Assembly (NCBI RefSeq): GCF_001887355.1
Contig: NZ_MPIN01000005.1
Span: 676,681 to 740,680, forward strand
DNA: 64,000 nucleotides
DNA from: Cystobacter ferrugineus
Lineage (GTDB): Bacteria; Myxococcota; Myxococcia; Myxococcales; Myxococcaceae
Direction: 5' to 3'
This document shows, one piece after another, positions 1,968-44,687 of this stretch. A program made the position numbers and the translations under genes. Under the pieces are notes generated by a model. It made no database searches. It was not told the origin of the DNA and saw only the letters and a program-made list of their open reading frames with translations. Position 1 is the first letter of the stretch; each line of letters begins with the position of its first letter.

Positions 1968-3806
1968 TTGTTCGCGCGTGTGTTTCAACGATGTATCACT
2001 GGTGTCGTCATGCTCGGGACCTGGAGCGCACTGGCCCAGGACTCGAGCATTCCTGGATTCGAGCTCGAGCGGCTCCAACTCAACCCCGGCGCGAGAGACA
2101 GCCTCGTGTTGTCCACGGGAGAGCAGCTCCTCCAGGGCCGCTACCGCCTCGCGCTGACGGGGCACTGGGAGCACAACCCCCTGGTGCTGGTGGAGAACGG
2201 CAAGCGCAGCGCCGTCATCGTCAGCGACCGTGTGACGGGGCACCTGAGCGGCGCGTATGCGCTCTATGACTGGCTCGAACTCGGCGCGCAGGTACCCATC
2301 GTGGGCCAGTGGGCCGGCAACCCGGGCTCCGTGGGACTCTCGGCGCCCTCCTCGTTCGCGCTGGGCACCCCCTGGGTGCAGGGCCGCGCGCGACTCCTGT
2401 CCGAGGCGAACGCGGACGCGCTGGACCTTGGCCTGCACCTGGGCGTCGCGCTCCCGCTGGGCAGCACGGAGGCCCTGACGAAGGATCAAGGCTTCACCTT
2501 CACGCCGCGGGTGGGCCTGGGCAAGCAGTTGGGCGCGGGGTGGCGCGTGGGCGCCGACGTGGGCGCGCTGGTGCGCACGAAGACGTACGTGCTCACCTCC
2601 GGGACGAGCCAGCCCCGGGATGAGCTGGGCGTGGAGATCAACGGCGGCGTCAACGTCACCGGCCCGCTGGTGAAGAAGGTGAAGGGCGAACTGCTCCTGA
2701 GGGGCACGGCGCCCCTGGCGCACTCGCCCCTGTCCATGGAGGCCTTGCTCGGCGTGCGCGCCCCGGTGGGCCCCGTGGAGCTGTACGCCATGGGCGGCCC
2801 GGGCTTTGGCAGCACGGTGGGCACGCCCGCCTTCCGCGTGCTCGCGGGCGTGGCCTTCGGGTCGGAAGACAAGCCCGTGTGCGTGGAGGGCCAGTCGTAC
2901 CCGGTGGCGCTCTGCCCCGAACTCGACGCGGACGGTGACGGCGTGAAGAACGCCGCGGACCAGTGCCCTCGGGACGCGGGCCTCGCGCAGTTGGATGGGT
3001 GCCCGGACAAGGACGACGATGGCGATGGTCTGCTCAACCTGGCGGACCGCTGCCCCCAGCAGGCGGAGAACGTCAACGGCTTCGAGGACGGCGACGGCTG
3101 CCCGGATGATCCGGACTCGGACGGTGACGGCACCACCGACTCGAAGGACCGCTGCCCTCAGCAGGCCGAGGACAAGGATGGCTTCCAGGACGAGGACGGG
3201 TGCCCGGATCCCGACAACGACGGGGACGGCGTGGCCGACGCGCGGGACACCTGCCCGAACGAGGCCGGAGTGGCGGCGAACAAGGGCTGCCCGGACAAGG
3301 ATCGCGATGGGGACAGCATCGTCGACCGGCTGGACAACTGCCCGGACGAGCCCGGCACCAAGGAGAACAACGGTTGCAAGCAGAAGCAGCGCGTGCGCCT
3401 GGAGACTGAACGCCTCGACATCCTCGAGTCCATCTACTTCGAGGTGAACAAGGACGTCATCGACAGGCACAGCTACAAGCTGCTGGATGACGTGACCTCC
3501 ATTCTCCGCGAGCACCCGGAGATCGAGCGGATGCGCGTGGAGGGCCACACCGACAACCAGGGCGATGCGCAGTACAACACCGAGCTGTCGCAGCGCCGCG
3601 CCGAGTCCGTCGTGAAGTACCTCGTGGGCAAGGGCATCCCGGGCGAGCGGCTCGAAGCGAGAGGCCTTGGCCCGACGAAGCCCCTCGCGGACAACACCAC
3701 CAAGGAAGGCCGCGCGAAGAACCGCCGCGTGGAGTTCCACATCGTCGGCGACGCCGAGGGCGTGGAAGCCCAGCAGGGCGCACCCAACTCCGACACCGCC
3801 AGGTGA
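1968..3806 (+). CDS. OmpA-family outer-membrane protein with thrombospondin type 3 repeats (TraB-like)
   Basis: A 612-residue outer-membrane protein. The TTG start at 1968 is chosen because GGAGGAA lies 4 bases before it and a signal peptide follows directly (cleavage near ALAQ-D). Residues 25-300 look like a beta-barrel. Residues 320-467 carry about five calcium-type TSP3 repeats (DxDGDGVxNxxDxCP). Residues 474-590 form an OmpA peptidoglycan-binding domain with [13 protein letters not shown] and LSQRRAESV. The stop codon lies inside the Shine-Dalgarno region of the next gene, so the two are translationally linked. The barrel is paralogous to that of the minus-strand OmpA gene ending at 34761: both share a D/ELE-x-L-P-G-SLVL-TG signature after the signal peptide. 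An OmpA protein beside a MYXO-CTERM protein is the TraB/TraA arrangement; orthology is not proven. Confidence 0.88.
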
Positions 3807-3814
3807 AACCAACC

Positions 3815-6565
3815 ATGAACATGCATCCCAAGACAGCATGGACGCGCCCGGCGCTCGTCGGGCTCACCCTTCTCTTCACCTCGGTGGGCTGCCAGACGCA
3901 ACAGGAGCCGCCCTCCGCCTCCCCTGCCCTGCTCACGCGGGTCAGCCAGGCCCTCGCCGCGGACGGCAAGCTGCAGCCCGGCGAGCAGTGTGACGACGGC
4001 AACACCCAGAGCGGTGACGGATGTAGCGCCACCGGCACGCTGGAGGCCGGCTTCCTCTGTCACCTCCCCGGCAAGCCGTGCTCCGCGGCGAGCCTGTGCG
4101 GCAACGGCGTGGTCAACTCGGGCGAGCTGTGCGACGACGGCAACACCGTGGACAACGGCAACGGCTGCTCCGCGACGTGCGACCTGTCCTTGTGCGGCAA
4201 TGGCACGCTCGACAACCGTGCCTACCCGAACTACGCGCAGGAGATCTGCGACGACGGCAACCGCTTCGACGGCGACGGCTGCAACCGCCTGTGCGAGGTG
4301 GAGCCGGGCCAGGCGTGCGCGGGCGCTCCGAGCCGGTGCGTGCGCGCGGGCGTAGCGCTGTTCAACACGGGCGTGGACGCGAACAACCGCCGCCTGGAGG
4401 GAACCGCGGTGGATCCGCACTGGTTCTACCGGGGCACCACCACGGGCGCCACCACGGGCGGGCGCACGGCCAGTGACTGGCCGCAGGAAGTCCAGACGGC
4501 GCGCTTCATGGACCCTCTGGGAGCGATCACCTGCGTGTACCAGGACTTCATCATCCCCTCGACCACCACGCTCTCGCGCTTCCGCATGCGCGTGGCGACC
4601 TTCAACGACAACGAGTTCGACACCGCGTCGGTGAACGGCGTGGCCTTCACCCCCACTGTCATCAGCCAACCGGCGGGCCAGCCCTGGCAGAAGAACATCA
4701 TCCGCGAGCTGGGCACCACGGCGGCCTGGCGCACCGGGCTCAACCGGCTGGAGCTGTGCAACGAGAACGACGACGGTCCGCCCAATGCCTTCCGCTACCT
4801 GTTCGTGGATGCCTACGACGACACGTGTGGGGACGGAGCCATCTCCCCCCGCGAGGAGTGCGATGACGGGAACAGCGTCTCCAACGACGGCTGCAGCGCC
4901 ACCTGTGGCATCGAGACGGCCTATGGCTGCACGGGCGAGCCCAGCCGGTGCGCGCGGACGTGTGGCAATGGAGTGCTCAACCCGGGCGAGCTGTGCGACG
5001 ACGGGAACCTGACCACGGGAGATGGCTGCGATACGCGCTGCCGGGTGGAGGCGGGGTACTCGTGCCCCACCGCGGGCAGCGCCTGCGTCCAGCAGTGCGG
5101 AAATGGCGTCATCAACCCGGGCGAGCTGTGTGATGACGGCAACACCTTCAACTCCGATGGGTGCTCCGCCGCGTGCCGGGTGGAGAATGGCTATGAGTGC
5201 CATGGGGCACCGTCCGTGTGCGGCACCCTGTGTGGCAACGGCCGGATGGACCCGGGCGAGCTGTGCGACGACGGCAACGTGTCCTTGGGGGATGGGTGCT
5301 CGTCGGCCTGTACCCTCGAACTGGGCTATGTGTGCCCCACCGCGGGCGCGCCATGCGTGAAGAGCTGTGGCAACGGCAAGGTCGAGCAGGGAGAGCTGTG
5401 CGATGACGGGAACCTGACCTCGGGGGACGGATGCGCCACCGAGTGCCGGGTGGAGCCGGGCTACTCCTGCTCCGCCCCCACGAGCGCTCCGTCCACGTGC
5501 GCCGAGACGTGTGGCAATGGCGTGCTGGAGGAGAACGAGACCTGCGACGATGGCAACAAGAGCGCGGGCGATGGCTGCTCGCCGGGCTGCCGCGTGGATC
5601 CGGGCTACTCCTGCAGCGGGGCGCCGAGCACCTGTGCGACCCTCTGCGGTGACGGCATCGTGGCGGGCGCCGAGCAGTGCGATCACGGCAACACGGAGCC
5701 GGGCGATGGCTGCTCCAGCACGTGCCAGATCGAAGCGGGCTGGACCTGCCCCTCGCCGGGGACGGAGTGCACCCAGGTGTGCGGCAACGGCGTGCTGGAC
5801 ATCGGCGAGCAGTGCGATGACCAGAACACCCAGGCGGGCGATGGCTGCGGTGCCACCTGCCGGCAGGAGACGGGCTACTACTGCAGCGGGGCACCCAGCG
5901 TGTGCGTCACCTCGTGCGGTGACGGCCAGGTGGCGGGCACCGAGGCGTGCGACGACGGCAACCTGGAGGACGGTGATGCGTGCTCGCCCCGCTGCCGCCT
6001 GAACCTGGGCCAGGCGTGCACCTCGTCCAACGCCTGTGAGGGCGTGTGCAGCCCGGCCACCAACACCTGCGTGGTCGCCAATGTCTGCGGCAACGGCCTC
6101 ACCGAGCAGGGCGAGGCGTGTGACGACGCGAACACGGCCTCGGGCGACGGCTGCGGCGCGGTGTGCGCCATCGAGCCGGGCTACAGATGCCAGGGCCAGC
6201 CCTCCGTCTGCACCTCGGAGCCGCCCGACACCACCCTCGTCCGGGGCCCGCCCTCCGTCGGGGCCAACCCCAACGCCGGGTTCGAGTTCTCCTCGAACGA
6301 TCCGGGGGCCCGCTTCGAGTGCAGCCTGGACGATGGGCCCTACCAACCCTGTGAGGACACCTACGTCGTCACTCCGGGCCAGCACACGCTGCGCGCTCGC
6401 GCGGTGGACGCCGCGGGCAACGTGGATCCAACGCCCGTCGAGCACACCTGGCGGGTGCTGGATGACAACCGCTCGCTCGCGGGTGGAGGCTGCAGCGCCG
6501 TGCCCACGCCCTCGGTGCTGGGCCTGTTGGGACTGCTGGCCCTGCGTCGGCGCAACCGCCGCTAG
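3815..6565 (+). CDS. Cysteine-rich repeat MYXO-CTERM surface protein (TraA-like architecture)
   Basis: A secreted, surface-anchored protein of about 916 residues. ATG 3815 is preferred over GTG 3803 because AGGTGA (3801-3806) sits 8 bases before it. After a signal peptide (FTSVGCQ), thirteen copies of the Myxococcus cysteine-rich repeat (CGNG..GE.CDDGN..GDGC, DUF4215 type) follow. They are split after the third copy by a domain of about 165 residues with few cysteines (roughly residues 172-338). A short Ig/chitobiase-like segment precedes the MYXO-CTERM tail: GGGCS, a Leu-rich helix and RRRNRR. Known MYXO-CTERM proteins are sorted to the cell surface after processing at that Cys. With its OmpA partner it resembles TraA; the central domain could be the recognition part. 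The ligand is unknown. Confidence 0.87.
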
Positions 6566-6578
6566 TGGAAAGGGGGCC

Positions 6579-6599: not shown

Positions 6600-6617
6600 T
6601 CCCCGTCTCGGGGGGCC

Positions 6618-27975: not shown

Positions 27976-28071
27976 GCGTGATGCGGCCTGGATGGGGAGC
28001 ACGCCCCCGTCACAACGCCGCACACGCCACTCCACCGTTGTGGAAGCCAACGGACGGAGAGAGGCCTCGTG

Positions 28072-31000
28072 ATGAGCCGGAACACAAGTTGGCGCGACCT
28101 CGAGGAGGGTGCGTCTGACTTCAGCGACACGTTCCTGCTGAAACTCAGGGAGGCGCCCGCCTCCTTCCTCCTTCCCCGGCCGGGAGAACTGCTGGGTGGC
28201 CAGCGGGGGGATCGCTTCGAGCTTCGTGAGCGGTTGGGCCAGGGAGGCATGGGCCAGGTCTTCCTCGCCTGGGATCGAGAGCTGCGGCGCCACGTGGCCC
28301 TCAAGTTCATCCAACCCCTCACGGACATCTCCAGCCCGACGCTCACCTCGCTGCTCAAGGAGGAGGCACGGGCCATTGCCCGGCTCGACCACGACAACAT
28401 CATCCGCCTCTTCGATATCTCGGAATGGCGGCCCCCCCACCACTCCGCCGTCGTTCCCTTCCTCATCATGGAATACCTGAAGGGAAAGTCCCTCTCCGCC
28501 CACCTGCGCCAGGGCGCGCTGGGCTGGAACGAGGCCCTCGCCATCTTCCATGACGTGCTCGCGGGGCTGGCGCACGCCCATGCGCACCAGGTCATCCACC
28601 GGGACCTCAAGCCAGGCAACGTCTTCGTGCTCGACGAGGGTCGCGCCAAGCTGCTCGACTTCGGGCTGGCCCGACTCGCCATGAACCCGGGGAAGGCCTC
28701 CCCCCATGGGCTCTCGCGGGTGGGATCGCCTCCCTACATGGCCCCGGAGCAATGGCTGGACGCTCCGCACGACGCCCGGACCGACCTCTGGGCCGCTGGG
28801 CTCCTGTGCTACCTGCTGCTGACGGGGAAACATCCGTGCCCCGGCCATTCCGTGGAGGACTTGCGTGACTGGGCCCTTGGCCACAGGCCGCTGCCCTCCG
28901 TACGCGACAGCCACCCGGAGCTGCCCGCGGAGATCGACGCCCTGCTCGACAAGGCCACCGCCCGGGAGCCGGAGCACCGCTTCCAGTCCATCCACGAGTT
29001 CTCACGGGAACTGACGGCCCTGGAGCAGCGGCTCGAGGCCGCCCGGAAGGGCCCGCCCGCTCCGCGGCGCGCGCAGCTCACCTTCGTCTGCTGCGTGATG
29101 GAACGTCCCCCGGAGCCGCTCGACGACGAGACACTCGGGGAGCGGCAGGACCACTTCCAGCGGACCTGCTCGGAGCTCCTCCAGCACCATGGCGGCACGG
29201 TGTTGCAGTGCATGGGAGACGAAGTGCTCGCCTGCTTCGGCCACCCCCGCGCCGAGGAGGACGCACTGCTGCACGCGGTGCGGGCGGGGCTCGCGCTGGC
29301 CTCGATGCCGCGGGCGCGCTTCGCGGTACGGGTGGGCCTGCACACCGCCTCCGTCGTACTGAGATCCCTGCCCCCGGCGAGCCAGAGCGGCAGCGCCTCC
29401 GCCCTCCAGGGAGACGCACACGTCCTGGCGGTCCAGGTGGCACGCCAGGCCCGGGCCGGGACGGCGCTGCTGAGTCAGAGCACCCACCAGGGGCTGCGCG
29501 GCGCCTTCATCACCGAGCCCCTCGCTCGTGGCGACGCGAGCGCCGTGCCCGTCCCCCTCCACCGCCTGGTCCGCGAGCGGGAGGAGGCCCTGCGCTTCGA
29601 ACGAACGCGGCCCCCCGGGCTCACGCCGCTGGTTGGCAGGGACGAGGAGCTGCGCCAGCTCCGGGAGCACTGGGAGCGGGCGCGGCGGGGACACGGGGCC
29701 CTCGTCCTGCTCCAGGGCGAGGCCGGCATTGGCAAGTCCCGGCTGCTGAGCGAGCTGCGCGAGCAGGTGGGCTCCGAGGCGGGGGCACGGGCCGTGGCGC
29801 AGTGCTGGCAGGAGTCCAGCACCAGTCCGTTCTTCCCGATCAGCCAACTGCTGCGTCAGCTCTTCGCCCTTCCTCCGGAGGCCCCCCTGGAGCAGCGGCG
29901 GAAGCGTGTCATCCAGCGCTTGGAGGAGCTGGGTATTCCCCACGAGGAGTATCTGCCCCTGCTCGAGTCCCTGCTCCGCCTGTCCGGCTCCGAGGCCGCG
30001 CTCCCAGGAGGCGCCGAGCTCCGGCAGGCCCAGCTCCTGGAACAGTTGGTCACCCTGCTCCTGGCGCTGACCGGCACCCAGTCCCCCACGAGACGCCCCG
30101 CCCTGCTCATCATCGAGGATCTGCACTGGGCGGACCCGTCCACCCTGGATCTGCTGGCGTGCCTGAGCGAGCGGGTGCGATCGGCTCCGCTCTGGGTGCT
30201 GCTCAGTGCCCGCCCGGAGCTGCGGCGGCCCTGGCCACCCGCGCCCGGTTTCCACCGGCTCGTGCTGCCACGCTTGTCCTTGGAGCACACCATGCACCTG
30301 GTGGCCAAGGCGACCCCCGGCCACCGCTTCTCCGAGGAGAAGCTCCGTCAACTCCAGGAAAAGACAGACGGAATCCCTCTCTTCATCGAGGAGATGGCCC
30401 ACCTGCTCCTGAGCGAGGCCTCACCCTCCCAATGCCTCGTGGACGAGCCAGCCATCCCCATTCCCTTGCAATCCCTGCTGCAGGCGCGACTGGACTCCCT
30501 CCCGGGGGAGCTGCGGGACCTGGCCCGGCGCTGCGCGGTCATTGGCCGCGGCTTCCGTCCCTCCCTGCTGGCGGCCTGCTTGGAGCAGCGGGACGAGGAG
30601 CTGCGCCAGGGACTCGAGGGGCTGGTGGCCGCCGGGCTGCTGCGGCAGTGCGAGGACGCCCCGGAGGCACGGTACGAATTCCGCCACGCCTTGCTGCGGG
30701 AGCAAGCCCGCGACTCGTTGCCCCGCTCCGAGCGGCGCCTTGTCCACCAGCGCATTGCCCGGCATCTGGCCGCGCGACTCGCGGACCCCTTCGAGTTTCC
30801 CCCGGAATGGGTGGCCCACCACTTCACCCAGGCCGAGGAGTGGGCCCAGGCCTATCCCTGGTGGTGGGAGGCGGGACGGACGGCCATGGCCCGCCGGGGC
30901 TACACGGAGGCGGTGCACCACTACCAGCAGGCCCGCCAGGCGCTGGCGCGGCTTCCCCCCGAGCCGGTCCATGCCGCGCAGGAGTTACGGCTGCTGCTGG

Positions 31001-32019
31001 AGCTCGGGGTGCCGATGCTGGTCACCCGGTGTGCCACGGACGAGGTGAAGGGCCTCTTCCTGCGTGCCGAGACGCTGTGCCACCAATCCGGGGCGACCGA
31101 GCAGCTCTCCCCCGCGCTCGTCGGCCGCTTGATCTGGCACCTGGAGCATGCGGACTACGTGGAGGCGCTTGGCACGGCGAAGCGCCTGATGGACGTGGGG
31201 GATCACTCGCACCAACAGGAAGAGCAGGCCGTGGGCTGCGTGGCCATGGGCATCTGCCTGCTGTTCCAGGGAATGCCGCGGCGGACACTGGCCCTGCTCG
31301 AGCGCGCCCGTGAACTCCAGGGTCCGGACTTCCATCCCGAGCGCGAACGGGCGCTCTGCCAGAAATTCTGCTTCTCGCCGCGCGTGATGGCCCTCATCTT
31401 CTCGGCCGTGGCCCGGCTCTTTCTCGAAGGGCCCCGGCCGAAGGCCCGGAACGACTGCGAACAAGCCCTGGGTCACCTCGACACACTCCACTGCCCCATG
31501 ACGGCGTCCGTCACGCTGACCTATGCGGGTCTCTTCTTCCAGCAATGCGGTGAGGTGGAGCGAACCCTCGAGCTGACGTCGAGATTGCTCCCCCTGATGA
31601 CGCGCTACAACCTGTCGAGCTGTGGGGTGGAGATCGCGGAAGCCCTGCACGGGTGGGCGTTGGCCAGGCAAGGAGAGGCCAGTGGGCTGCGCTCGCGCAT
31701 CGAGCAATGGGCGGCGTCGGGGATGCGCAAGGGGCTCTCCTATTGCTTCGGCCTGCTGGCCGATCTGCACCTGGGGCGCGGGGAAATCGAACCCGGACTG
31801 GAGGCCGTGCGGGAAGCCCTGGGCTGGGTGGAAGCGCTGGGGGAGCGGTTCTACGAAGCCGAGCTGCACCACGTGAAGGGGCAGTTGCTCTGGCGGCGGG
31901 GGGCGGGCAGCGAGGCACGGCTCAGCATCATGCGGGCCCTGGAGATCGCCCGAAGTCAGCAGGCCGCCTTCTTCGAGCGCCGGGTGGCCGGGACGCTGGA
32001 GCGCCTGCGGATGGATTGA
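28072..32019 (+). CDS. Giant Ser/Thr kinase with degenerate cyclase, STAND ATPase and TPR-like domains (paralogue of 9341-13510)
   Basis: 1315 residues from ATG 28072 (GTG 28069 is adjacent), with GGAGAGAGG upstream. Order: kinase (about 43-310: GQGGMG, VALKF, HRDLKPGN, DFGLA, APEQW), cyclase-like domain (from 332), STAND ATPase (Walker A GEAGIGKS near 549, Walker B IIEDLHWADPS near 677) and C-terminal helical repeats. The cyclase-like domain has QLTFVCCVME where the metal-binding Asp should be, and the catalytic Asn is gone (GDAHVLAVQVARQ). The N-terminus also matches the 9341 kinase (SDFSDTFLLKL versus SDFGDSFLREV). It follows the molybdenum hydroxylase operon by 96 bases on the same strand; a functional link is possible but unproven. 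Confidence 0.88.
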   Translation: MSRNTSWRDLEEGASDFSDTFLLKLREAPASFLLPRPGELLGGQRGDRFELRERLGQGGMGQVFLAWDRELRRHVALKFIQPLTDISSPTLTSLLKEEARAIARLDHDNIIRLFDISEWRPPHHSAVVPFLIMEYLKGKSLSAHLRQGALGWNEALAIFHDVLAGLAHAHAHQVIHRDLKPGNVFVLDEGRAKLLDFGLARLAMNPGKASPHGLSRVGSPPYMAPEQWLDAPHDARTDLWAAGLLCYLLLTGKHPCPGHSVEDLRDWALGHRPLPSVRDSHPELPAEIDALLDKATAREPEHRFQSIHEFSRELTALEQRLEAARKGPPAPRRAQLTFVCCVMERPPEPLDDETLGERQDHFQRTCSELLQHHGGTVLQCMGDEVLACFGHPRAEEDALLHAVRAGLALASMPRARFAVRVGLHTASVVLRSLPPASQSGSASALQGDAHVLAVQVARQARAGTALLSQSTHQGLRGAFITEPLARGDASAVPVPLHRLVREREEALRFERTRPPGLTPLVGRDEELRQLREHWERARRGHGALVLLQGEAGIGKSRLLSELREQVGSEAGARAVAQCWQESSTSPFFPISQLLRQLFALPPEAPLEQRRKRVIQRLEELGIPHEEYLPLLESLLRLSGSEAALPGGAELRQAQLLEQLVTLLLALTGTQSPTRRPALLIIEDLHWADPSTLDLLACLSERVRSAPLWVLLSARPELRRPWPPAPGFHRLVLPRLSLEHTMHLVAKATPGHRFSEEKLRQLQEKTDGIPLFIEEMAHLLLSEASPSQCLVDEPAIPIPLQSLLQARLDSLPGELRDLARRCAVIGRGFRPSLLAACLEQRDEELRQGLEGLVAAGLLRQCEDAPEARYEFRHALLREQARDSLPRSERRLVHQRIARHLAARLADPFEFPPEWVAHHFTQAEEWAQAYPWWWEAGRTAMARRGYTEAVHHYQQARQALARLPPEPVHAAQELRLLLELGVPMLVTRCATDEVKGLFLRAETLCHQSGATEQLSPALVGRLIWHLEHADYVEALGTAKRLMDVGDHSHQQEEQAVGCVAMGICLLFQGMPRRTLALLERARELQGPDFHPERERALCQKFCFSPRVMALIFSAVARLFLEGPRPKARNDCEQALGHLDTLHCPMTASVTLTYAGLFFQQCGEVERTLELTSRLLPLMTRYNLSSCGVEIAEALHGWALARQGEASGLRSRIEQWAASGMRKGLSYCFGLLADLHLGRGEIEPGLEAVREALGWVEALGERFYEAELHHVKGQLLWRRGAGSEARLSIMRALEIARSQQAAFFERRVAGTLERLRMD

Positions 32020-32038
32020 GACGAACGCCCTCCACGAA

Positions 32039-32068
32039 GGCGGGAGGGGCCTGGTGCCCGCTCCCGCC
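32039..32068. terminator. Strong hairpin between convergent kinase and MYXO-CTERM genes
   Basis: GGCGGGAG pairs with CTCCCGCC, with an inner GGGC/GCCC pair around loop CTGGT and one bulged base. It lies between two converging stop codons, so it probably ends both transcripts. No long T-run is present. Confidence 0.6.
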
Positions 32069-32105
32069 TGGACTACTTCATGGGATGACCTTGCTGGACC
32101 GCCAC

Positions 32106-34727
32106 CTACGTGCGGCGGCGGCGCAGCACCGCGAGCCCACCCAGGACCAGCAGCACCACCAGCGCCGACTGGGCGCCTCCGACCGCGGTGCAGCCACTGC
32201 CCTGGAACCAGGCTTCATCGTTCTCCGCCGGCGGAGGGGGCGGCGTGGGCTGGTTGCTCGTGACGGCGATCTGCACATGGGAGATCTGGTTCGCCGTGGT
32301 GGTGACGGTGTTGGAGGTCACCGTGCCGCTGACTGGGGCGGTCGTGCCGCTGCCGCCCGCGGTCACATTCATGTAGGCCGGGATGTAGCTATCGGTCCCG
32401 CTCATCTTGAGCGTGTAGTCCGCCGCCCAGACCGGGAATTCGAGGGTGCCGTCAGCCGCCGACACCGCGGAGACCGGCTGGCCGTTCGAATCCAGGATGG
32501 GATTGCCCTCGCTGTCGAGCAGGAACACCTTGGCCCCGGCGACCGGGCTACCGTCGGACAGCGACACCACCGTGGCGCGCAGGCGGGCGCCGCAGGTGTC
32601 GAAGTTGGCCGTGGCGACGGTGGTGCGCAGCGGCTGGTCGGTGAAGGACGTGGGGGTACCGGGGTTGATGGTGATCGCGCCCTTGGCGGTGACGACGGTC
32701 TCCCGGGGAGGAGAGTCGGTGGTGTTGGCCAGTGCGGGCCCGAGCGGACAGGCAGCGAAGGGCGGCGACGAGAGGTCCCAGCAGAGCTGCGGGGGAGCGC
32801 CCGTGGTGACGCGGATCTCGCTTTCAGGCTCGATGCTGGAGGTGTCGATGCCTGCGACGGCGACGTCGAAGCTCGGCGTGAGCCCCGTCTCGAGCGTCGA
32901 AAGCGTGTTCAAGTCCACGACGGGATTGGCGGGATCGATCGGCAGATTGCTCCACGCGGCGAGGGGCTTGCCGTTGGAGTCCCTCACCGTCAGCGTGGCC
33001 GAGGTGTACGTCGAGCGGCCAGGCGTGGTGAGCGTGAAGGACTTGTACTGGTAGACGCGGGACTCCGGGTCGCAGCTCAGCCGCGGAACGCTCACCGGCG
33101 TCTTGAAGGAGATACGGGTCGCCCCCGCGGTGGTGCAGCCCTTCGTGCCGGTGCTGATCCTCCAGCTATTGATCTCGCCGTTGTCCGTGTTGGTCCACAG
33201 GCAGTCCGGGTTCTCGGGATCGAAGATGGTCGTGTAGAGGACCGGCACGGTAATGGGAAAACCGGCCCCGCATTTGGCGTCGGTGGCCATGTCCCAGCAC
33301 ATGGCCTTGGAGGCCCTTTCGGAGGCGGGGGCGGTGATGCCGTAGGCCCAGGCAACCTTGGAGCCGTAACTGCTGGCACCGCCGTTCTGAACGTCCTCGT
33401 TCAAATTTCCCAACACGCGATGCGCCTGGATTTCGGCGGCGAATCCCGGCGGCAGGCTGTGCGGGGAGCCATCCAGCTTGAAGCAGACGTTGTTCGCGCA
33501 GACATGCTGGATTTCGCCGTTGGCACCCGGCACGGCCCACACGGGACTGCTCGAGATACTGCTCACGGGTTGAGGCCAGGTACCAGAGCACCGATTCCAG
33601 GTGGTGCTGTCGTAGCAGTCCAGGTTGAACCCTCTGCCGGGGACCACGTAGAGCTGGTTCCCCACCGCGGCGAGGCCGGATTGGTTGGCATTGCCCAGCC
33701 GCGGCAACCCCAGATCCTTCCCGGGGCACTCGGTGCCGGTGGCCATGTCCAGACAGGTGATGAAGGTGCGATTGTCGCTGGCGAAGCCAATCGCGTACAT
33801 CTTCCGGCCGATCACCACCGGATCGATGTGGTCGTTATAGTTATTGTTCTTCAAATCGCTGTTGGAGGCGTCGGGCTTCTTGATGTGGGCCGCCGTGAGC
33901 TCGGAGAGAACCACCGGCCTGGCGCAGCGCGTGCCGTTGGTGAGGTCCACGCAGTCCCAAGCCAGCTTGAAGGGCTGCACATCGGTGACGGTGGGCTGCC
34001 AGAACTTGTTGGACGCCGCGTCGATGAAGCCCGTGGAGCGGATGCTGGTCTGGGTGAGATTGATGGGGAATCCCGGGCACAAATTGCCGGTCGCCAATTC
34101 CCGGCACAGCATCTGGTTGAGGTTGTTGTGGTGGTGGACGTTGTAGAACCGGGTGTACGCGGGATCGAAGAGGACATCCCAGCCGTCACCCTTGACGCCG
34201 CTCGGGAGCGGGTACCGCTCCCTCACCGTCACGCGAGGCGCTTTGGACCTGGCCACGATCGCCTGCCGCTCGCCGTCCACGCCTTCCACGTCAAGGGGGA
34301 CGGAGGAGACCGCACGCACACGCGACACCTGCGCCCATTCACTGGTGGTGGTCGGCGTCGTCGCCAGCTTCGTGCTCCCCGCGTAATACTCGATTGCCCA
34401 GCCCTGCGGGTAGATGGGGGGGTAGTTGAGGCTTTGGAGGCTGGGGTCCCAGTTCGCCTCCAGGGTCTGGGTGACGGAGGCCGTCACCGTGGCCGGCGGC
34501 AGGGTGGCGATGTACGAGGAGAAGGTGGGGCTCGTGGTGGTCGCGGAGGCGGTCAGGTCCGTCGGGGCGATCTTCTGCGCGGTGGCCCGAGGCGCGACGG
34601 GTCGCGCGTCAGCCGGGCCGGACTTGCCGCTGTCGCCACAGGCGAGAGCCGAGAGGAGGACCCAGAGGCTGGCAACCCGCGCCGCGCCTGGGAGCACGCG
34701 CCGTGGAACTTCGGTGTTCATGTGCAT
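32106..34727 (-). CDS. Cys-paired repeat MYXO-CTERM surface protein, partner of OmpA paralogue
   Basis: 873 residues, with a signal peptide ending in LLSALAC (possible lipobox). At about residues 200-530 there are repeats with paired cysteines of the form C-x-D-x-x-T-x-x-x-C followed by gFP or similar: CRELATGNLC, CVDLTNGTRC, CLDMATGTEC, CYDSTTWNRC, CWDMATDAKC. They suggest a disulfide-stapled beta-propeller. A carboxypeptidase-regulatory-like stretch (VVSLSDGSPVAGAKVFLLDS) follows near 735. A proline linker leads to the MYXO-CTERM tail SGCTAV, a hydrophobic helix and RRRR. It starts 33 bases after the OmpA paralogue stop, mirroring the cassette at 1968-6565. It is likely displayed on the cell surface; the ligand is unknown. 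Confidence 0.8.
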   Translation of the reverse strand: MHMNTEVPRRVLPGAARVASLWVLLSALACGDSGKSGPADARPVAPRATAQKIAPTDLTASATTTSPTFSSYIATLPPATVTASVTQTLEANWDPSLQSLNYPPIYPQGWAIEYYAGSTKLATTPTTTSEWAQVSRVRAVSSVPLDVEGVDGERQAIVARSKAPRVTVRERYPLPSGVKGDGWDVLFDPAYTRFYNVHHHNNLNQMLCRELATGNLCPGFPINLTQTSIRSTGFIDAASNKFWQPTVTDVQPFKLAWDCVDLTNGTRCARPVVLSELTAAHIKKPDASNSDLKNNNYNDHIDPVVIGRKMYAIGFASDNRTFITCLDMATGTECPGKDLGLPRLGNANQSGLAAVGNQLYVVPGRGFNLDCYDSTTWNRCSGTWPQPVSSISSSPVWAVPGANGEIQHVCANNVCFKLDGSPHSLPPGFAAEIQAHRVLGNLNEDVQNGGASSYGSKVAWAYGITAPASERASKAMCWDMATDAKCGAGFPITVPVLYTTIFDPENPDCLWTNTDNGEINSWRISTGTKGCTTAGATRISFKTPVSVPRLSCDPESRVYQYKSFTLTTPGRSTYTSATLTVRDSNGKPLAAWSNLPIDPANPVVDLNTLSTLETGLTPSFDVAVAGIDTSSIEPESEIRVTTGAPPQLCWDLSSPPFAACPLGPALANTTDSPPRETVVTAKGAITINPGTPTSFTDQPLRTTVATANFDTCGARLRATVVSLSDGSPVAGAKVFLLDSEGNPILDSNGQPVSAVSAADGTLEFPVWAADYTLKMSGTDSYIPAYMNVTAGGSGTTAPVSGTVTSNTVTTTANQISHVQIAVTSNQPTPPPPPAENDEAWFQGSGCTAVGGAQSALVVLLVLGGLAVLRRRRT

Positions 34728-34760
34728 GGCTTTTCGGGGGTACGAAGAAAAGGAGTGGGG

Positions 34761-36296
34761 TTACTTCTTCTTGCTGTTGGAGATGAACTCGGTGCGGCGG
34801 TTCCTCTGGCGGCCCTCCGCGGTATCGTTGGTGGCGATGGGCTGGTCCGGTCCGTAGCCCTTCGCCTCGAGGCGCGCCGGCGCCACGCCGCGCTCGACGA
34901 GGTAGCGGCGCACCGCCTCCGCGCGATCCTGCGAGAGCTTGATGTTGAACTCGCGCGTGCCGCGGTTGTCGGTGTGGCCGCCGATCCGCAGCCGGACGAG
35001 CTCCGGGTGCTCCTTGAGGATCTTGGCCACCTCATCGAGGAGGGGGAAGGACTCGGGCAGGATGTCGGACTTGCCGGTGGCGAAGCGGACCTGATCCTTG
35101 ATGGAGATACGAGCCTCCTCGTACTCGGCGTACGGAGGCTTCGGGGGCTCGGGCGGCGGGCAGCCCTCGTGGGCGGGGACACCGGGCTTGAGCGGGCAGG
35201 CGTCGTCCACGTCGGGGATGCCGTCCTTGTCGGAGTCCGCGGGCGGGGGCGGGGCCGGCGGAGGAGGGGCCGGGCACGGGGTCGGCTCCGGCGCCGGCGC
35301 GGGGGTCGGGCAGACGGGGCAGGCGGGGCAGACGACGGGCGTGGGCTCCTGCGGCGTCTCCTTGGGCTCTTCCCTCGGCTTGGAGGGGAAGGGACGGAAG
35401 GCGAGGCCCGCGAAGGCGCGGAACGCCGGGTTGCCCGGCATCTTGCCGATGCCTGGACCCGCCAGCGCGAACACCTCCAGGTTCAGAGGCAGCGGATAGC
35501 GGGCGCCGACGAGCACCTCTCCCGCGCTCATGGTCTGCGTGAGCGCCACGAGCGCGCGGGCCGTCACCTCGCCGCGCAGCCCATCTCCCAGCGTGGAGAC
35601 GGTGGCCCCCAGGGTGGCGTAGCTGCCCACCTGGTCGATGATCCGATTGGAGTAGCTCGAGAGCCTCTCGCTCTGGCGGATCACCGCGCCCACCTCCGCG
35701 CCCACCCGGAGGAGCGACCCGAAGTTGTGGCCGAACCCGATCCCGGGGTTGAAGGCGAGCCCAGCCCCCGGGTCTTGCGTGAGCCCGGTGCTGCTCCCGA
35801 TGGGCAGCGACAGGCCCAGGTTGAGGCCGATGTCGCCCACCGCCGAGTCGGACTGGCGCGCGAGCACGATGCGGCCCTGCAGCACGGGCGCGCCGAGCAC
35901 CGTACCGGCGACCGGCGCGATGCCCTGGGCGGACAGGTCGTCGCCCCCCTGAGAGAGGATCACGGGCAGTTGCAGCGCCAGCTCCACGCTGTCGGTGAGG
36001 CCGTACGCGACGCCGAGGTGGGCGCTCCAGCGACGGCCGACGACCGCGCCCTGGATCTCGTCGTTGCGCACGAACACCAGGGGCTTGTGCTGGTACTGGG
36101 CGGCGAGAAAGAGGCGGAGTTGACCCTTCTCCAGGACGTCACCGGTGGTGAGCACGAGCGAGTGCTGGCCTCCCGGGCTGAGCGTCACCTGCTCGAGGTC
36201 GAAGGTCTTGACGGGGGTCTGCGCGAGCGCCGGGGAAGCAACGAGCGCGCCGAGCAGGAAGGCAGTTCTAGGGTTCAGGAAAAGCGTTGGGCTCAT
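34761..36296 (-). CDS. OmpA-family outer-membrane protein with one TSP3 repeat (TraB-like paralogue)
   Basis: 511 residues. Signal peptide to ASPALAQ, then a barrel beginning TFDLEQVTLSPGGQHSLVL that aligns with the barrel of the OmpA gene at 1968. A Cys/Pro-rich linker (VCPACPVCPTP) and a single TSP3 repeat (DSDKDGIPDVDDACP) lead to an OmpA domain with IGGHTDNRGTREFN and LSQDRAEAVRRYL, ending NRRTEFISNSKKK. The OmpA domain would hold peptidoglycan while the barrel sits in the outer membrane. First gene of a two-gene operon with the MYXO-CTERM protein. Compared with the paralogue, four TSP3 repeats are replaced by the proline linker. Confidence 0.88.
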   Translation of the reverse strand: MSPTLFLNPRTAFLLGALVASPALAQTPVKTFDLEQVTLSPGGQHSLVLTTGDVLEKGQLRLFLAAQYQHKPLVFVRNDEIQGAVVGRRWSAHLGVAYGLTDSVELALQLPVILSQGGDDLSAQGIAPVAGTVLGAPVLQGRIVLARQSDSAVGDIGLNLGLSLPIGSSTGLTQDPGAGLAFNPGIGFGHNFGSLLRVGAEVGAVIRQSERLSSYSNRIIDQVGSYATLGATVSTLGDGLRGEVTARALVALTQTMSAGEVLVGARYPLPLNLEVFALAGPGIGKMPGNPAFRAFAGLAFRPFPSKPREEPKETPQEPTPVVCPACPVCPTPAPAPEPTPCPAPPPPAPPPPADSDKDGIPDVDDACPLKPGVPAHEGCPPPEPPKPPYAEYEEARISIKDQVRFATGKSDILPESFPLLDEVAKILKEHPELVRLRIGGHTDNRGTREFNIKLSQDRAEAVRRYLVERGVAPARLEAKGYGPDQPIATNDTAEGRQRNRRTEFISNSKKK

Positions 36297-36569
36297 ATAT
36301 GAGTACGCGGAAAGACGTTCGCATGGACAGATCCAGCGAATTTTCCCACTTCGATCGGCCTACTAGCAATTTCAAACCGGATCAATGGATGAGGGGAAAC
36401 CCTCGGACCCGAAGCCCACGAAAGACAACTCGAGGCCCGCGCGCTCCCCTTCCCCCCACGCTCCTCGAGGATCCCTCGGTCCTTGTCTCCGCTGAAGCGA
36501 GGCAACAAAACCGTCAGGCCCTCAGGTGAACCTGCGTCTCCGCACGACCAATTCCCCCTCCGGCCAGAG

Positions 36570-37430
36570 ATGCTCCCCATGTTGAAAAAGAACCTGCACG
36601 AGGCCAACCGCCTCTCCTGGAACGCCGCCACCCGAGCCCACAACAGCCACAAGGGCGATCAGGCCCGCTTCCTCCGCGAGGGCGGCTCCACGCTCTTCCC
36701 CGAGGAGCTCGAGTTGCTCGGGGACCTGCGCGGACGCTCACTTCTGCATCTGCAGTGCAACTCCGGACAGGACACCCTCAGCCTCGCCGCCCGTGGCGCC
36801 CTCGTCACCGGCGTGGACATCAGTGACGAGGCCATCTCCTTCGCACGCCGCCTGTCCGCCGACTCGGGCCTGCCCGGCACCTTCGAGCGCGCCGATGTCT
36901 ACGACTGGCTCGCCTCCGCCCCTCCGGCCCGCTACGACCTCGTCTTCAGCTCCTATGGCGCCATCTCCTGGCTGTCGGACCTCGGGCCCTGGGCCGAGGG
37001 CATCTCCCGCGTCCTCGAGCCCGGCGGCCGCTTCGTCCTCGTCGAGTTCCACCCCGTCCTCTGGCTCTTCGACGAGAAGCTGCGCCTGGCCTTCCCCTAC
37101 TCCGGTGGCCAGCACGTCCCCGAGGCCAGCGGCGTGTCCGACTACGTCGCCCGCTCCGGCGAGAACCTGGTGTCCTGGGGCTACGAGGAGGGCGTGCGCG
37201 ACTTCCAGAACCCCCACCCCAGCCACTGCTTCCAGTGGGGGCTCGCGGACCTCCTCAACCCGCTGCTGCGCCACGGGCTCGCGCTCGAGCGGCTCGAGGA
37301 GTACTGCTACAGCAACGGATGCAAGGTGCTCGAGGGCATGCGCGAAGCCCCCGGGCACCGCTTCCTGCTGCCCGAGGGGATCCCCGACCTGCCCTTGATG
37401 TTCGGCCTGTCGGCCCGAAGGACCGGGTGA
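36570..37430 (+). CDS. Class I SAM-dependent methyltransferase
   Basis: About 286 residues from ATG 36570; ATG 36579 is nearly as good and neither has a clear Shine-Dalgarno. SAM-binding motif I is LHLQCNSGQDTLSLAARGA (an unusual Gln-Cys-Asn-Ser form known in this subfamily), followed by the acidic GVDISDEAISFARRL and FERADVYDW. The motif IV region is YDLVFSSYGAISWLSD. The C-terminal third (FHPVLWLFDEKL, NPHPSHCFQWGLADLLNPLL) would hold the substrate. Substrate unknown. Divergent from the OmpA paralogue across a 273-base gap. Confidence 0.82.
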   Translation: MLPMLKKNLHEANRLSWNAATRAHNSHKGDQARFLREGGSTLFPEELELLGDLRGRSLLHLQCNSGQDTLSLAARGALVTGVDISDEAISFARRLSADSGLPGTFERADVYDWLASAPPARYDLVFSSYGAISWLSDLGPWAEGISRVLEPGGRFVLVEFHPVLWLFDEKLRLAFPYSGGQHVPEASGVSDYVARSGENLVSWGYEEGVRDFQNPHPSHCFQWGLADLLNPLLRHGLALERLEEYCYSNGCKVLEGMREAPGHRFLLPEGIPDLPLMFGLSARRTG

Positions 37431-37531
37431 CCTGGGATTGGACTCGCCCGATGGATGATCCGCTCCCCACGTCGGGCCCGGTCCGCTAACGGGGCAGCGA
37501 GGTGAGCGGGACAACTCTTTTTCTCATGAAC

Positions 37532-37547
37532 TGGCAAAATCCTTGCA
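37532..37547 (+). promoter_or_regulatory. Sigma-54 (-24/-12) promoter
   Basis: TGGCA-AAATCC-TTGCA has GG and GC exactly 10 bases apart, as in the sigma-54 consensus TGGCAC-N5-TTGCA. It lies in an AT-richer island 114 bases before the start of the AKPAEG-repeat gene, in the correct orientation. Transcription would begin near 37558. Sigma-54 promoters need an enhancer-binding activator, so expression is probably developmentally or condition controlled. Confidence 0.62.
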
Positions 37548-37661
37548 AGTGAGACAGCAACTTCACGAGGCGGGACGCGATAATCCTCTGTTTCCCGATA
37601 CCAGGAGGAAGTATTTTTCTGGTTATCCTAGCGAAATCGCTCTTGCCCTTAGGGTTTTCCC

Positions 37662-39434
37662 ATGCCCGGTCGCGTTCCCTCTTCTCGGCCTCCTCCCCTC
37701 CCGCCCAGGCCCACGTCGACGACGGCGGGGAAGCCGACCACCCCCGCGTCCACGAAGCCGACGGGAGGAGCCTCGACGAAGCCCACGGAGGCACAGTCGG
37801 CTTCCAGCGCCGCGACAAGCGCGAAGCAAGCCTCCGGGGGGACCGCTACCCAGGCCGCTCAGAGCAAGCCGAACCACCAGCAGAGCGCGATGGAGAAGCC
37901 CAACACCAACTCGGCGCAAGTAGCCCAGGCCCTGAACGGCGCCGGAGGCAAGAACTCGGCGCATCCCTCGACCGTTCATGGGAGCTTCCAGCACGCCCTC
38001 ACGCAGGCCCAGGAGGCGGATAAGCCGCCTGCCGCGACCAATGCGGGCAAGCCGGCCGAGGGCGCCAAGCCGACCAATGCGGGCAAGCCGGCCGAGGGCG
38101 CCAAGCCAGCCGAGGGCGCCAAGCCGGCCGAGGGCGCCAAGCCAGCCGAGGGCGCCAAGCCGGCCGAGGGCGCCAAGCCAGCCGAGGGCGCCAAGCCAGC
38201 CGAGGGCGCCAAGCCAGCCGAGGGCGCCAAGCCAGCCCAGGGGGCCAAGCCGGCCGAGGGCGCCAAGCCAGCCCAGGGCGCCAAGCCGGCCGAGGGCGCC
38301 AAGCCAGCCGAGGGCGCCAAGCCGGCCGAGGGCGCCAAGCCAGCCCAGGGCGCCAAGCCGGCCGAGGGCGCCAAGCCAGCCGAGGGCGCCAAGCCAGCCC
38401 AGGGGGCCAAGCCGGCCGAGGGCGCCAAGCCAGCCGAGGGCGCCAAGCCGGCCGAGGGCGCCAAGCCGGCCGAGGGCGCCAAGCCAGCCGAGGGCGCCAA
38501 GCCAGCCCAGGGGGCCAAGCCAGCCGAGGGCGCCAAGCCAGCCGAGGGCGCCAAGCCAGCCCAGGGCGCCAAGCCAGCCGAGGGCGCCAAGCCAGCCCAG
38601 GGGGCCAAGCCGGCCGAGGGCGCCAAGCCAGCCGAAGGGGGCAAGCCCACTGCCACGACCAATACGAGTAAGCCCCCTGTCGCGGCCCAGGGCTCCACCA
38701 GCACGATGGGGAAACTGAACCAGCTCGCCTCGAGCGCGCTGAACGGCCTGAACCACGCGGCCAACTTCGCCGATACGGCGGTCCAAGGGGCCCATCTCGC
38801 CTCCAATGTGATGGGGAGCGTGAACCATCTCGCCTCCAATCTGATGGGGAGCGTGAACCATCTCGCCTCCAATCTGATGGGGGGCGTGAACCATCTCACC
38901 TCCAGTCTGATGGGGGGCGTGAACCATCTCACCTCCGGTCTGACGGGCGGTTCGACGCAGGCGACGCACGGTTTGGAGGGCACGCACCAACCCCCGGGCT
39001 ACGGTCACGACAGCGCGGTGGAGCACGGGGCGACCCATGCCGCGTCCCAGTCACATCCGACGAATATGGCTCACGCGGCTTCCTCCGCCTTCGAGGCGGG
39101 TCATGCGCTGCTCGGCAACGCGAGCACGCTGGCGGGTCTCCTCCAGGGCGGCAGTGGCGCCCTGGCGAAGGCGGCCGCGCGTTTCGCTCCGGGCCTCAAC
39201 ATCGCCATGGCGGGCCTGGACGCCGCCAATGCCGCGAAGACCTTCATGAATTCCGAGGCGACCCTGGGCCAGAAGCTCAACTCGGGCATCACCGCCATGG
39301 GCTCCATCGCCGCCGCCACCAACATCCCCGTCTTGGCGCAGGCCGGCGCCACCGCCGCCGCCATCAGCAGCATGGCGGGTCCCCTCGCGGAGAGGTTCTC
39401 GGGTCATGGCCGCGGTCCGCACGTCAGCGGTTGA
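37662..39434 (+). CDS. Long AKPAEG-repeat protein with hydrophobic helical C-terminus, function unknown
   Basis: 590 residues, no recognised family. Order: a Pro/Thr/Ser-rich basic N-terminus without a signal peptide (1-130); about 30 tandem six-residue units PA(E/Q)GAK (about 140-330); a Thr-rich spacer; five 11-residue units HLxSxLMGxVN (about 377-430); a Gly/His-rich stretch; and an Ala/Gly/Leu-rich helical C-terminus of about 120 residues (AGLLQGGSGALAKAAARFAP, MGSIAAATNIPVLAQAGATA) that could insert in membranes. ATG 37662 follows AGGG. A sigma-54 promoter lies upstream and a trigger-factor-like chaperone gene follows after 31 bases. The pair may be an exported structural or effector protein with its own chaperone; this is inference. 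Confidence 0.72.
   Translation: MPGRVPSSRPPPLPPRPTSTTAGKPTTPASTKPTGGASTKPTEAQSASSAATSAKQASGGTATQAAQSKPNHQQSAMEKPNTNSAQVAQALNGAGGKNSAHPSTVHGSFQHALTQAQEADKPPAATNAGKPAEGAKPTNAGKPAEGAKPAEGAKPAEGAKPAEGAKPAEGAKPAEGAKPAEGAKPAEGAKPAQGAKPAEGAKPAQGAKPAEGAKPAEGAKPAEGAKPAQGAKPAEGAKPAEGAKPAQGAKPAEGAKPAEGAKPAEGAKPAEGAKPAEGAKPAQGAKPAEGAKPAEGAKPAQGAKPAEGAKPAQGAKPAEGAKPAEGGKPTATTNTSKPPVAAQGSTSTMGKLNQLASSALNGLNHAANFADTAVQGAHLASNVMGSVNHLASNLMGSVNHLASNLMGGVNHLTSSLMGGVNHLTSGLTGGSTQATHGLEGTHQPPGYGHDSAVEHGATHAASQSHPTNMAHAASSAFEAGHALLGNASTLAGLLQGGSGALAKAAARFAPGLNIAMAGLDAANAAKTFMNSEATLGQKLNSGITAMGSIAAATNIPVLAQAGATAAAISSMAGPLAERFSGHGRGPHVSG
38092..38643 (+). repeat. 18-bp tandem repeat array (about 30 copies) coding PA(E/Q)GAK
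   Basis: Near-identical 18-bp units (core GCCAAGCCGGCCGAGGGC) repeat about 30 times. Most differences are at three positions: CCA/CCG for Pro, GAG/CAG for Glu/Gln and GGC/GGG for Gly. Such uniformity points to recent expansion, and the unit length keeps the frame when copy number changes. Being coding and without spacers, it is not a CRISPR array. Confidence 0.95.
38793..38950 (+). repeat. 33-bp tandem repeats (about five copies)
   Basis: Units of 33 bp code HLASNVMGSVN, HLASNLMGSVN, HLASNLMGGVN, HLTSSLMGGVN and HLTSGLTGG. The heptad-like hydrophobic pattern suggests helices. They lie inside the AKPAEG-repeat gene, between the hexapeptide array and the hydrophobic C-terminus. Confidence 0.9.
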
Positions 39435-39465
39435 GCGGTAGCCTCCCGCCTCGAAAGGCACCTTC

Positions 39466-40542
39466 ATGAACCCGAACCAGAAATCCGCTCAGCCCGCCAA
39501 GAAGCCCTTCGCGTTTCCAATGTCCATGTCGCTGGCGCGCAAGGCCGAGAAGGGCGGTCCGGTGGAGCTGCCTCCGGTGACCGCGCCTTCCCTGGAGGGC
39601 CTCTCCGTCACCGTGCCCGCCCCGGAGCCCATCTCCGCCCAGCAGATCCAGGCGCGCTTCCAGGAGCTGGCACGTGCGTACGCCACCGAGCGCATGCGTT
39701 CGCGCACCGAGCCCATCGCCTGGGGCGATGAGGTGCTGGTCAACATCGCGGGGTATTCGAATGGCCGCCTCATTCCCTTCAGCGTGCGCGCCGATGCCTG
39801 GATTACGCTCGCGCCCGCCCCCCTGCTGCCCGGCCTGTACGAGGAGCTGGTGGGCCACATGCCGGGGGAGAACGTGCTGGTGAACATCACCCTGGGCGAG
39901 GACTACCCCATCGAGGCGCTGCGCGGTCAGCTCGCGCGCTTCGCCGTCCAGCTCCAGGCCGCGCGCGAGGTGACGTACCCGGATCCGTCCAGCCCGGAGT
40001 TCCTCAAGGCCTTTGGCCGGGGGAACACGGTGGAGGCGGCGACGCGTGCCGTGTTGAAGGAGCTGGAGGAGATGACCGTGCGGTTGCTGCAACTCCGGGC
40101 CCAGGAGATGGTGCTCGATGAGGTGGCCGCCCGCACGCAGGTGGACATTCCCGAGGCGCTCGTCGACGAGGAGGTCCGCCGCCGCTGGGGCTCGAGCGAG
40201 GGCCGCGCCGTGACCGACCTCAAGTTCACCGTGAAGCAGCAGGAGGAGTCGCTGCAGACGTGGCTGAGTGACGAGCCCACCCGGGACGCGGTCCGGCAGC
40301 GGCTGCGCATCGCCCTGGCGCTGGGCGCCATCTGCACGCGCGACGGCGTCACCCTCACTCCGGCCAAGGTGCAGGAAGTCATCCAGGCCGAGGCCACCTC
40401 CCTCGGGGTTCCGCTGGCTCAGGCCTCCGCCGCCCTGCGCGAGGATCCGCAGCAGTACGCCCGCATCGAGCAGGTGGCCTGGCACCTGATGGCGGTCTCG
40501 TACGTCATGAGCAAGGCCCAGGTGCACTTCGCGGGCGCCTGA
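39466..40542 (+). CDS. Trigger-factor-like peptidyl-prolyl isomerase/chaperone lacking the ribosome-binding domain
   Basis: 358 residues. After a disordered N-terminus of about 60 residues comes an FKBP-type PPIase domain like that of trigger factor (about 82-172: GDEVLVNIAGYSNGRLIPF, LLPGLYEELVGHMPGENVLV, YPIEALRGQLARFAVQL). A helical trigger-factor C-terminal chaperone domain follows (about 185-358: VRLLQLRAQEMVLDEVAART, IPEALVDEEVRRRW). The ribosome-docking domain of true trigger factor (GFRxGKxP signature) is absent, so it is unlikely to be the housekeeping chaperone. It lies 31 bases downstream of the repeat-protein gene under the same sigma-54 promoter and probably serves that protein. 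AAAGG precedes the ATG. Confidence 0.78.
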   Translation: MNPNQKSAQPAKKPFAFPMSMSLARKAEKGGPVELPPVTAPSLEGLSVTVPAPEPISAQQIQARFQELARAYATERMRSRTEPIAWGDEVLVNIAGYSNGRLIPFSVRADAWITLAPAPLLPGLYEELVGHMPGENVLVNITLGEDYPIEALRGQLARFAVQLQAAREVTYPDPSSPEFLKAFGRGNTVEAATRAVLKELEEMTVRLLQLRAQEMVLDEVAARTQVDIPEALVDEEVRRRWGSSEGRAVTDLKFTVKQQEESLQTWLSDEPTRDAVRQRLRIALALGAICTRDGVTLTPAKVQEVIQAEATSLGVPLAQASAALREDPQQYARIEQVAWHLMAVSYVMSKAQVHFAGA

Positions 40543-40596
40543 GACTCGGGACGCCGGGCGGGGCGCTTGCCGACAGCGCCACGCCCACCTCGAGTC

Positions 40597-40627
40597 GTGT
40601 GAGGCTCCCGAGGAGGTGGCCTCACAC
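40597..40627. terminator. Hairpin between convergent chaperone and DUF4832 genes
   Basis: A 9-bp perfect inverted repeat (GTGTGAGGC / GCCTCACAC) with a 13-base loop lies between two converging stops. There is no T-run, so its role as terminator is probable but not certain. Confidence 0.45.
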
Positions 40628-40670
40628 CCATCTCGCCAAGGGACTTTGAATCAAGCCTGGGTGTTGACCT

Positions 40671-44591: not shown

Positions 44592-44593
44592 CG

Positions 44594-44636: not shown

Positions 44637-44687
44637 TCCCTTCCTTGCCGTGGAGGCGGCGGGAGGCGAACCCGCCGCCGGAGGCGG

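Follow-up and report, generated by a model that had tools for sequence, protein, structure and literature searches.

A TraAB-like pair of barrel and MYXO-CTERM genes in Cystobacter ferrugineus, and related pairs across myxobacterial genomes

Introduction

In a 64,000-nucleotide stretch of the myxobacterium Cystobacter ferrugineus (contig NZ_MPIN01000005.1, positions 676,681 to 740,680; hereafter the window), two adjacent genes on balance probably encode a TraAB-like surface complex, in which an outer-membrane barrel protein linked to the cell wall (B) would be the constant anchor of a variable, recognising head (A). The barrel of B is related to that of TraB, barrels of this kind are paired with MYXO-CTERM proteins across genera, and in the window pair the head changes faster than its neighbour.

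TraAB is the model for how bacteria recognise kin through direct contact, and few MYXO-CTERM proteins besides TraA have, to our knowledge, a known role; the traA gene is presumably MXAN_6895. The traB gene is identified as MXAN_6898 in the relevant passage of PMC3325183, and TraA and TraB are described as forming 1:1 complexes, with TraB proposed as the wall anchor, in the part of PMC12045341 that concerns them. Among the literature titles and abstract openings searched, which leave aside supplements possibly listing such genes, no description of a barrel/head family was found.

Results

The window cassette consists of B and A genes 33 bp apart on the same strand, in the order B-A. A second cassette near the start of the window (the first cassette) also has B-A order, with its two genes overlapping, and the coordinates and common gene order given by the initial annotation were confirmed for both. 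Their features are as follows.

34761..36296, minus strand: B protein, 511 amino acids (aa), with a Sec-type signal peptide (by eye), a TraB-like outer-membrane barrel, one thrombospondin type-3 (TSP3)-like repeat and an OmpA domain
35364..36203, minus strand: barrel domain of B, residues 32–311, with about 12–14 strands by eye, a suggestive count because the structural model has a predicted local distance difference test score (pLDDT) of 46
35184..35240, minus strand: TSP3-like repeat in the periplasmic linker of B, 16.1 bits, below the 25-bit cut-off
34797..35087, minus strand: OmpA domain of B (peptidoglycan-binding family), residues 404–500, PF00691 84.5 bits, pLDDT of the block 66–88
32106..34727, minus strand: A protein (head), 873 aa, predicted exported Cys-rich ectodomain with a MYXO-CTERM tail
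34638..34727, minus strand: signal peptide of A, ending in a lipobox-like Cys30 kept in 5/5 aligned homologues in which the N-terminus is present
33048..34190, minus strand: repeat region of A, five C-x-[DE]-x6-C motifs and variants, the first motif starting at residue 208 and the last at 477
32391..32582, minus strand: CarboxypepD_reg-like domain of A, E = 0.0013, below cut-off; 6 of 9 aligned sequences match at E ≤ 1
32106..32192, minus strand: MYXO-CTERM sorting tag of A (Cys846, hydrophobic helix, RRRR), TIGR03901 20.5 bits against a cut-off of 20
1968..3806, plus strand: B protein of the first cassette, 612 aa, with barrel, five TSP3 stretches and OmpA domain; paralogue of the window B
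3803..6565, plus strand: head of the first cassette, 920 aa, with 13 DUF4215/myxo_disulf_rpt repeats, a lipobox-like Cys and a MYXO-CTERM-like tail of 15.0 bits, below cut-off

The TIGR03901 scores come from a single-model search of the genome, which places the window head just above the cut-off and the first-cassette head below it; a full NCBIfam scan at E ≤ 0.1 listed this model for neither. In the first-cassette tail the Cys, the hydrophobic stretch and the Arg-rich end are visible by eye.

The two barrels align with 37.6% identity over 271 aa (E = 1.6e-50), as the initial annotation had claimed, and its further expectation that they should resemble each other beyond any random OmpA protein was borne out, since the window barrel matches L009, an unpaired barrel and OmpA protein of the same genome, with E of only 0.002–0.003 (L and G numbers denote our loci and genomes). 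What the annotation missed is the TraB-like nature of this platform, with TraAB as its characterised relative. The TraB model NF033763 gives 178.2 bits for the window B and 264 bits for the first-cassette B, both below its cut-off of 700, and when profiles free of the OmpA domain were compared, nine barrels of the window kind matched three of the TraB clade with an hhalign probability of 99.6% (E = 3e-24). By this profile comparison the window barrel is homologous to that of TraB independently of the OmpA domain. The same genome holds a true TraA (1035 bits, cut-off 750) adjoining a true TraB (969.5 bits, cut-off 700), and at this locus, L017, the TraA protein scores above cut-off for NF033759, TIGR04566 (TraA N-terminal domain) and TIGR04201 (Cys-rich repeat). 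The sub-cut-off TraB score together with the barrel-profile match to the TraB clade therefore marks the window cassette, at the level of sequence, as a TraAB-like paralogue and not TraAB itself. With TraAB it shares the signal peptide, barrel, TSP3 repeat and OmpA domain of TraB, a MYXO-CTERM partner and the adjacency of the two genes. A C-terminal OmpA domain well above cut-off (PF00691, 84.5 bits for the window B and 82.8 for the first-cassette B; cut-off 27.2) is also the hallmark of OmpA/Pal wall-binding outer-membrane proteins, from which the window B differs in having a TraB-like barrel coupled to a surface partner.

This coupling sets barrel proteins apart within the genome. There are 21 OmpA-domain matches, 13 in proteins with a TraB-like barrel (in one, L018, the OmpA match is 25.4 bits, below cut-off) and 8 in barrel-less proteins. 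A MYXO-CTERM partner, adjacent or fused, accompanies 11 of the 13 (L001, L003, L004, L005, L006, L011, L012, L014, L015, L017 and L020; L009 and L018 are without one) as against 0 of the 8 (Fisher test by hand, p about 2e-4). Six of the 11 pairs have B-A order, and three, L001, L011 and L014, are single-chain A-B fusions; on the barrel tree, rooted for drawing only, fused L011 and L014 lie on the TraB side, while L003 and fused L001 lie on the other. A similar arrangement in M. xanthus, MXAN_5598, is described in part of PMC11980579 as a further TraAB-like case with an adhesin, an internal MYXO-CTERM, a barrel and OmpA in one chain; its part set is that of the window pair, which differs in consisting of two genes and in its ectodomain. 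Such fusions are a Rosetta-stone sign of a putative A-B complex. With 150 of 370 candidates scored, so that tag counts are lower bounds, at least 23 MYXO-CTERM tags lie above cut-off in this genome, 9 of these 23 in barrel cassettes; among the 11 paired loci nine exceed the cut-off of 20, and L005 (15.0) and L017 (18.8) fall below it. Heads across the genome's cassettes contain a Gly-rich region (by eye) with Big repeats, DUF4215 repeats, Kelch with HYR, HYDIN/ASH-like repeats, DUF11, or TraA.

Pairing extends to other genera. We surveyed 71 barrels in nine further genomes from nine genera, one being the window's own genus, and found a MYXO-CTERM partner, adjacent or fused, for 43, which agrees with the initial annotation's expectation, also upheld in the own genome (11/13), that pairing is kept across genomes. 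By rule (a tagged frame at most 900 bp away on either strand, or a fusion) 41 pairs were called, excluding the regex calls L085 (fused) and L095 (a 111-aa frame), and two, L039 and L086, were added by eye. Partners occur with 27 of 44 barrels scoring above 140 bits, the window's clan, and with 16 of the other 27; the 43 pairs comprise 17 B-A, 14 A-B, 10 fused and 2 convergent arrangements. Of the 154 genes lying no more than 700 bp from a barrel, 36 carry the tag, versus 1 of 440 farther away (the second of two with the tag in the L015 cluster) and none of 102 genes at nine control loci, eight of them OmpA loci lacking a barrel and the ninth a locus with a weak barrel match but no OmpA match. 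Within the order, relatives of a 332-aa N-terminal fragment carrying the window barrel occur in at least 103 of 145 genomes, a lower bound with at most 15 matches scored per genome. The window's head type is found in at least 7 of 145, its own included, among the matches listed (six candidates scored per genome), and an OmpA gene adjoins it in five of the six others (G073, G081, G085, G128 and, on a scrambled contig, G129).

Several variants of the arrangement were observed. L015 has one barrel gene followed by two MYXO-CTERM genes (2971–7894), and in L020, L042 and L072 the barrel and head genes are divergently transcribed, the L020 head having HYDIN/ASH-like repeats and the L042 and L072 heads clustering with it. 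Tandem barrels precede one head (B-B-A) in L047 and L054, from two genera, and the two upstream barrels group together. A clade of nine barrel and OmpA genes (L009, L058, L062, L096, L097, L107, L108, L109 and L111) has no MYXO-CTERM partner, the genes preceding L009 and L096 resembling M16 peptidases by eye, and in a barrel-only clade (L088, L090, L092 and L093) neither OmpA motif nor MYXO-CTERM partner was seen.

Head types follow the barrels closely. The 59 paired rows (which include L042, L050, L051, L072 and L091) carry 16 head types, and mapping these onto the tree of 84 barrels takes 15 changes, the minimum possible; the types were defined by single-linkage clustering, which may have joined too much in cluster 0. 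If gene order and an 'unpaired' label are scored as well, the count rises to 25, against a least possible 21 and a mean of 54.5 after shuffling. Because head-type changes on the barrel tree are near the minimum, barrel-head pairs appear to be mostly inherited together. The initial annotation had proposed one platform with interchangeable heads: the shared barrel and OmpA platform with unrelated MYXO-CTERM heads holds across genera, while free swapping of heads as a general rule is rejected by the 15 changes among 16 types. In G083, two h6 heads (L078 and L083) sit inside an h0 clade, where a head has probably been replaced once, together with a switch in gene order. Synonymous divergence jumps four- to six-fold between B and head in L004 (0.180 to 0.738, with 727 of 944 residues aligned) and L006 (0.078 to 0.445), which suggests import or exchange of diverged, related head alleles at these loci.

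The annotation had also read meaning into the presence of two cassettes within 30 kb. They are indeed about 25 kb apart, but with 11 cassettes in this genome such a close pair is unremarkable (a chance of about 0.3, estimated by hand), and a recent duplication inferred from this spacing was rejected because the barrels are 38% identical and belong to different subclades.

The tempo of change differs within the window pair. Omega is 0.99 for the head against 0.35 for B in the comparison with G073 (p = 7e-5) and 1.13 against 0.54 with G081 (p = 5e-5; Fisher tests on replacement-to-silent counts throughout). TraA and TraB differ in the same direction (0.35 and 0.19, p = 0.01), so that in TraAB, as in the window pair, the partner changes faster than the barrel protein. 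Change is uneven along the head: in 60-residue windows against G073, identity is 94% in the tail, 90% in residues 721–780 (the CarboxypepD_reg-like domain) and 59–85% elsewhere, while against G081 residues 721–780 are again the best conserved (78%) and the first 180 residues (48–53%) and residues 421–480 (50%) the least. A variable receptor on a constant anchor would be expected to show just this contrast of a fast head with a slow B.

The claim that the MYXO-CTERM partners carry unrelated ectodomains is supported by the absence of any blastp match at E < 0.01 between the window head and 11 other head proteins of its own genome, including that of the first cassette. Sequence searches of PDB and Pfam with the window head gave nothing convincing, only weak Kelch/WD40 matches. 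In an alignment with eight other heads, down to 32% identity, 17 Cys and the motifs GDGWD and N-x-HHH are invariant across all nine sequences. The count of five C-x-[DE]-x6-C motifs was equalled in 0 of 2000 shuffles; autocorrelation of the repeat region fell short of significance, with values as high in 61 of 200 shuffles. From the motif spacing we would guess at a 7-bladed β-propeller, an idea to which the head model, with a pLDDT of 35, gives no support.

Because its signal peptide ends in a conserved lipobox-like Cys, the window head may carry lipid at both ends; the residue was found by regex and conservation, and its lipobox status is thus putative. Among heads of clusters 1, 3, 4, 5, 6 and 13, 21 of 22 have a lipobox-like Cys, compared with 4 of 22 in cluster 0 (two of which seem false positives) and 0 of 7 TraA-type heads. 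The combination of a lipobox-like N-terminus (34638–34727 and 3803–3892 in the window) with a MYXO-CTERM tail recurs in many barrel-paired heads, consistently within head types, and suggests two-ended anchoring. That such anchoring is exclusive to paired heads was rejected: among 14 barrel-less MYXO-CTERM frames above cut-off, examined over residues 1–200 of each stop-to-stop frame (the L125 frame being doubtful), two (L126 and L129) have the Cys, a third regex match, L121, being discounted by eye as a Sec signal.

The local distribution of the window cassette is patchy, and the region around it (32019–44688) is variable. Between the kinase-like gene (28069–32019) and the gene at 44688–47030 lie 12.7 kb here, the cassette included, and 3.8 kb in G074. 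G073 has the window cassette, but nothing in its genome matches the kinase-like gene at more than 41%. The methyltransferase-like gene at 36483–37430 is unusable as a synteny marker because no relatives of it were found in the four genomes searched. Further along, the open reading frame at 37662–39434 contains long repeats of the GAKPAEGAKPAQ type and may encode a low-complexity protein that is secreted or surface-located.

Discussion

By analogy with TraA and TraB, B and A probably work as a pair. The barrel would seat B in the outer membrane, and the OmpA domain would bind it to the cell wall. A would be exported, lose its MYXO-CTERM helix by the myxosortase route (cleavage by the myxosortase MrtX is reported in the portion of PMC11980579 on these tags) and be lipid-anchored at the cell surface, held on the cognate barrel of B. 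Its Cys-rich, perhaps propeller-like ectodomain would then bind a surface molecule belonging to kin, prey or the matrix. In this scheme B would be the constant anchor, and recognition would fall to the variable head; outer-membrane exchange is no part of the proposal. The barrel homology, the gene pairing across genera and the contrast in tempo are observed; the physical complex, wall binding, surface display and ligand binding we infer.

A number of observations weigh against this reading. The window barrel is 26% identical to that of TraB, the 178 bits of B are far under the TraB cut-off of 700, and the genes run B-A where TraAB runs A-B. The window head has no domain above cut-off in a Pfam scan, is listed for none of NF033759, TIGR04566 and TIGR04201 in the NCBIfam scan at E ≤ 0.1, so differing from TraA in model match, N-terminal domain and repeats, and has no blastp match to the genome's own TraA. 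The AlphaFold models, built from 3 and 2 aligned sequences, are poor (pLDDT 46 for B and 35 for the head). Elsewhere, 28 of 71 barrels have no MYXO-CTERM partner seen, members of the L009 and barrel-only clades among them; four of the 28 have a neighbour beyond the retrieved stretch (L042, L050, L051 and L072), one lies near a contig end (L049), and L091 (a possible fusion in which no tag was seen), the upstream barrel in each of the L047 and L054 tandems and 20 others were also counted as unpaired. In G053 no B match accompanies the window-type head within the 18 kb inspected. Nor are fast heads general among cassettes: the head-to-B contrast is weak in L012 (0.52 and 0.35, p = 0.048), and it is 0.39 and 0.30 (p = 0.28) or 0.31 and 0.30 (p = 0.89) in the first cassette and 0.38 and 0.28 (p = 0.14) in L006. 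Since GC-rich codon bias can inflate the omega of all genes, only the contrast between neighbours is safe.

The same pairing data could be read differently, with the barrel as an exporter or display channel for the head, as in two-partner secretion, rather than its anchor. The close pairing, the B-A order (17 of the 43 pairs in other genomes, 6 of the 11 in this one), the retention of head type by barrel lineages and the fused forms holding both parts in one chain would all fit. We nevertheless consider this unlikely: a Pfam scan of B gave no secretion domain, 14 of the 23 tags above cut-off (150 of 370 candidates scored) have no adjoining TraB-model match, and MYXO-CTERM proteins are described, in the part of PMC11980579 concerned, as becoming surface-bound via the type II system, for which earlier work is cited there, and myxosortase.

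The head could also be a surface enzyme, such as a glycan or protein hydrolase, kept in place by the wall-anchored barrel and changing fast with prey substrates. In its favour, the motifs GDGWD and N-x-HHH are invariant in nine heads down to 32% identity, and M. xanthus MYXO-CTERM proteins are mostly predicted adhesins or hydrolases according to the portion of PMC11980579 that lists them, but Pfam, NCBIfam and PDB sequence searches returned no catalytic family, and an enzyme seems to us as improbable as an exporter. Least credible is a second outer-membrane exchange machine, one that, like TraAB, would fuse outer membranes between compatible cells, for although the part list of barrel, OmpA and MYXO-CTERM partner equals that of TraAB and a fast-changing head could set compatibility, identity to TraB is low and the mutant of MXAN_4924, a TraA paralogue, is noted in part of PMC3325183 as having no overt transfer defect.

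The reading of a constant wall-linked anchor with a variable, recognising head can be taken further, though only tentatively. TraAB might be a single branch within a large family of myxobacterial wall-anchored barrels paired with surface receptors, in which each anchor lineage has its own head type; much of the MYXO-CTERM proteome could then be contact receptors with private barrels, giving some ten parallel recognition systems per cell, with several heads, the window's included, lipid-anchored at both ends. The present data suggest a family of contact systems, and TraAB, its founder, is the only member studied so far. Should a genome hold around a dozen TraAB-like pairs, every one with a head of its own, myxobacterial recognition may far exceed one locus, and the barrel would offer a handle for finding and testing every receptor.

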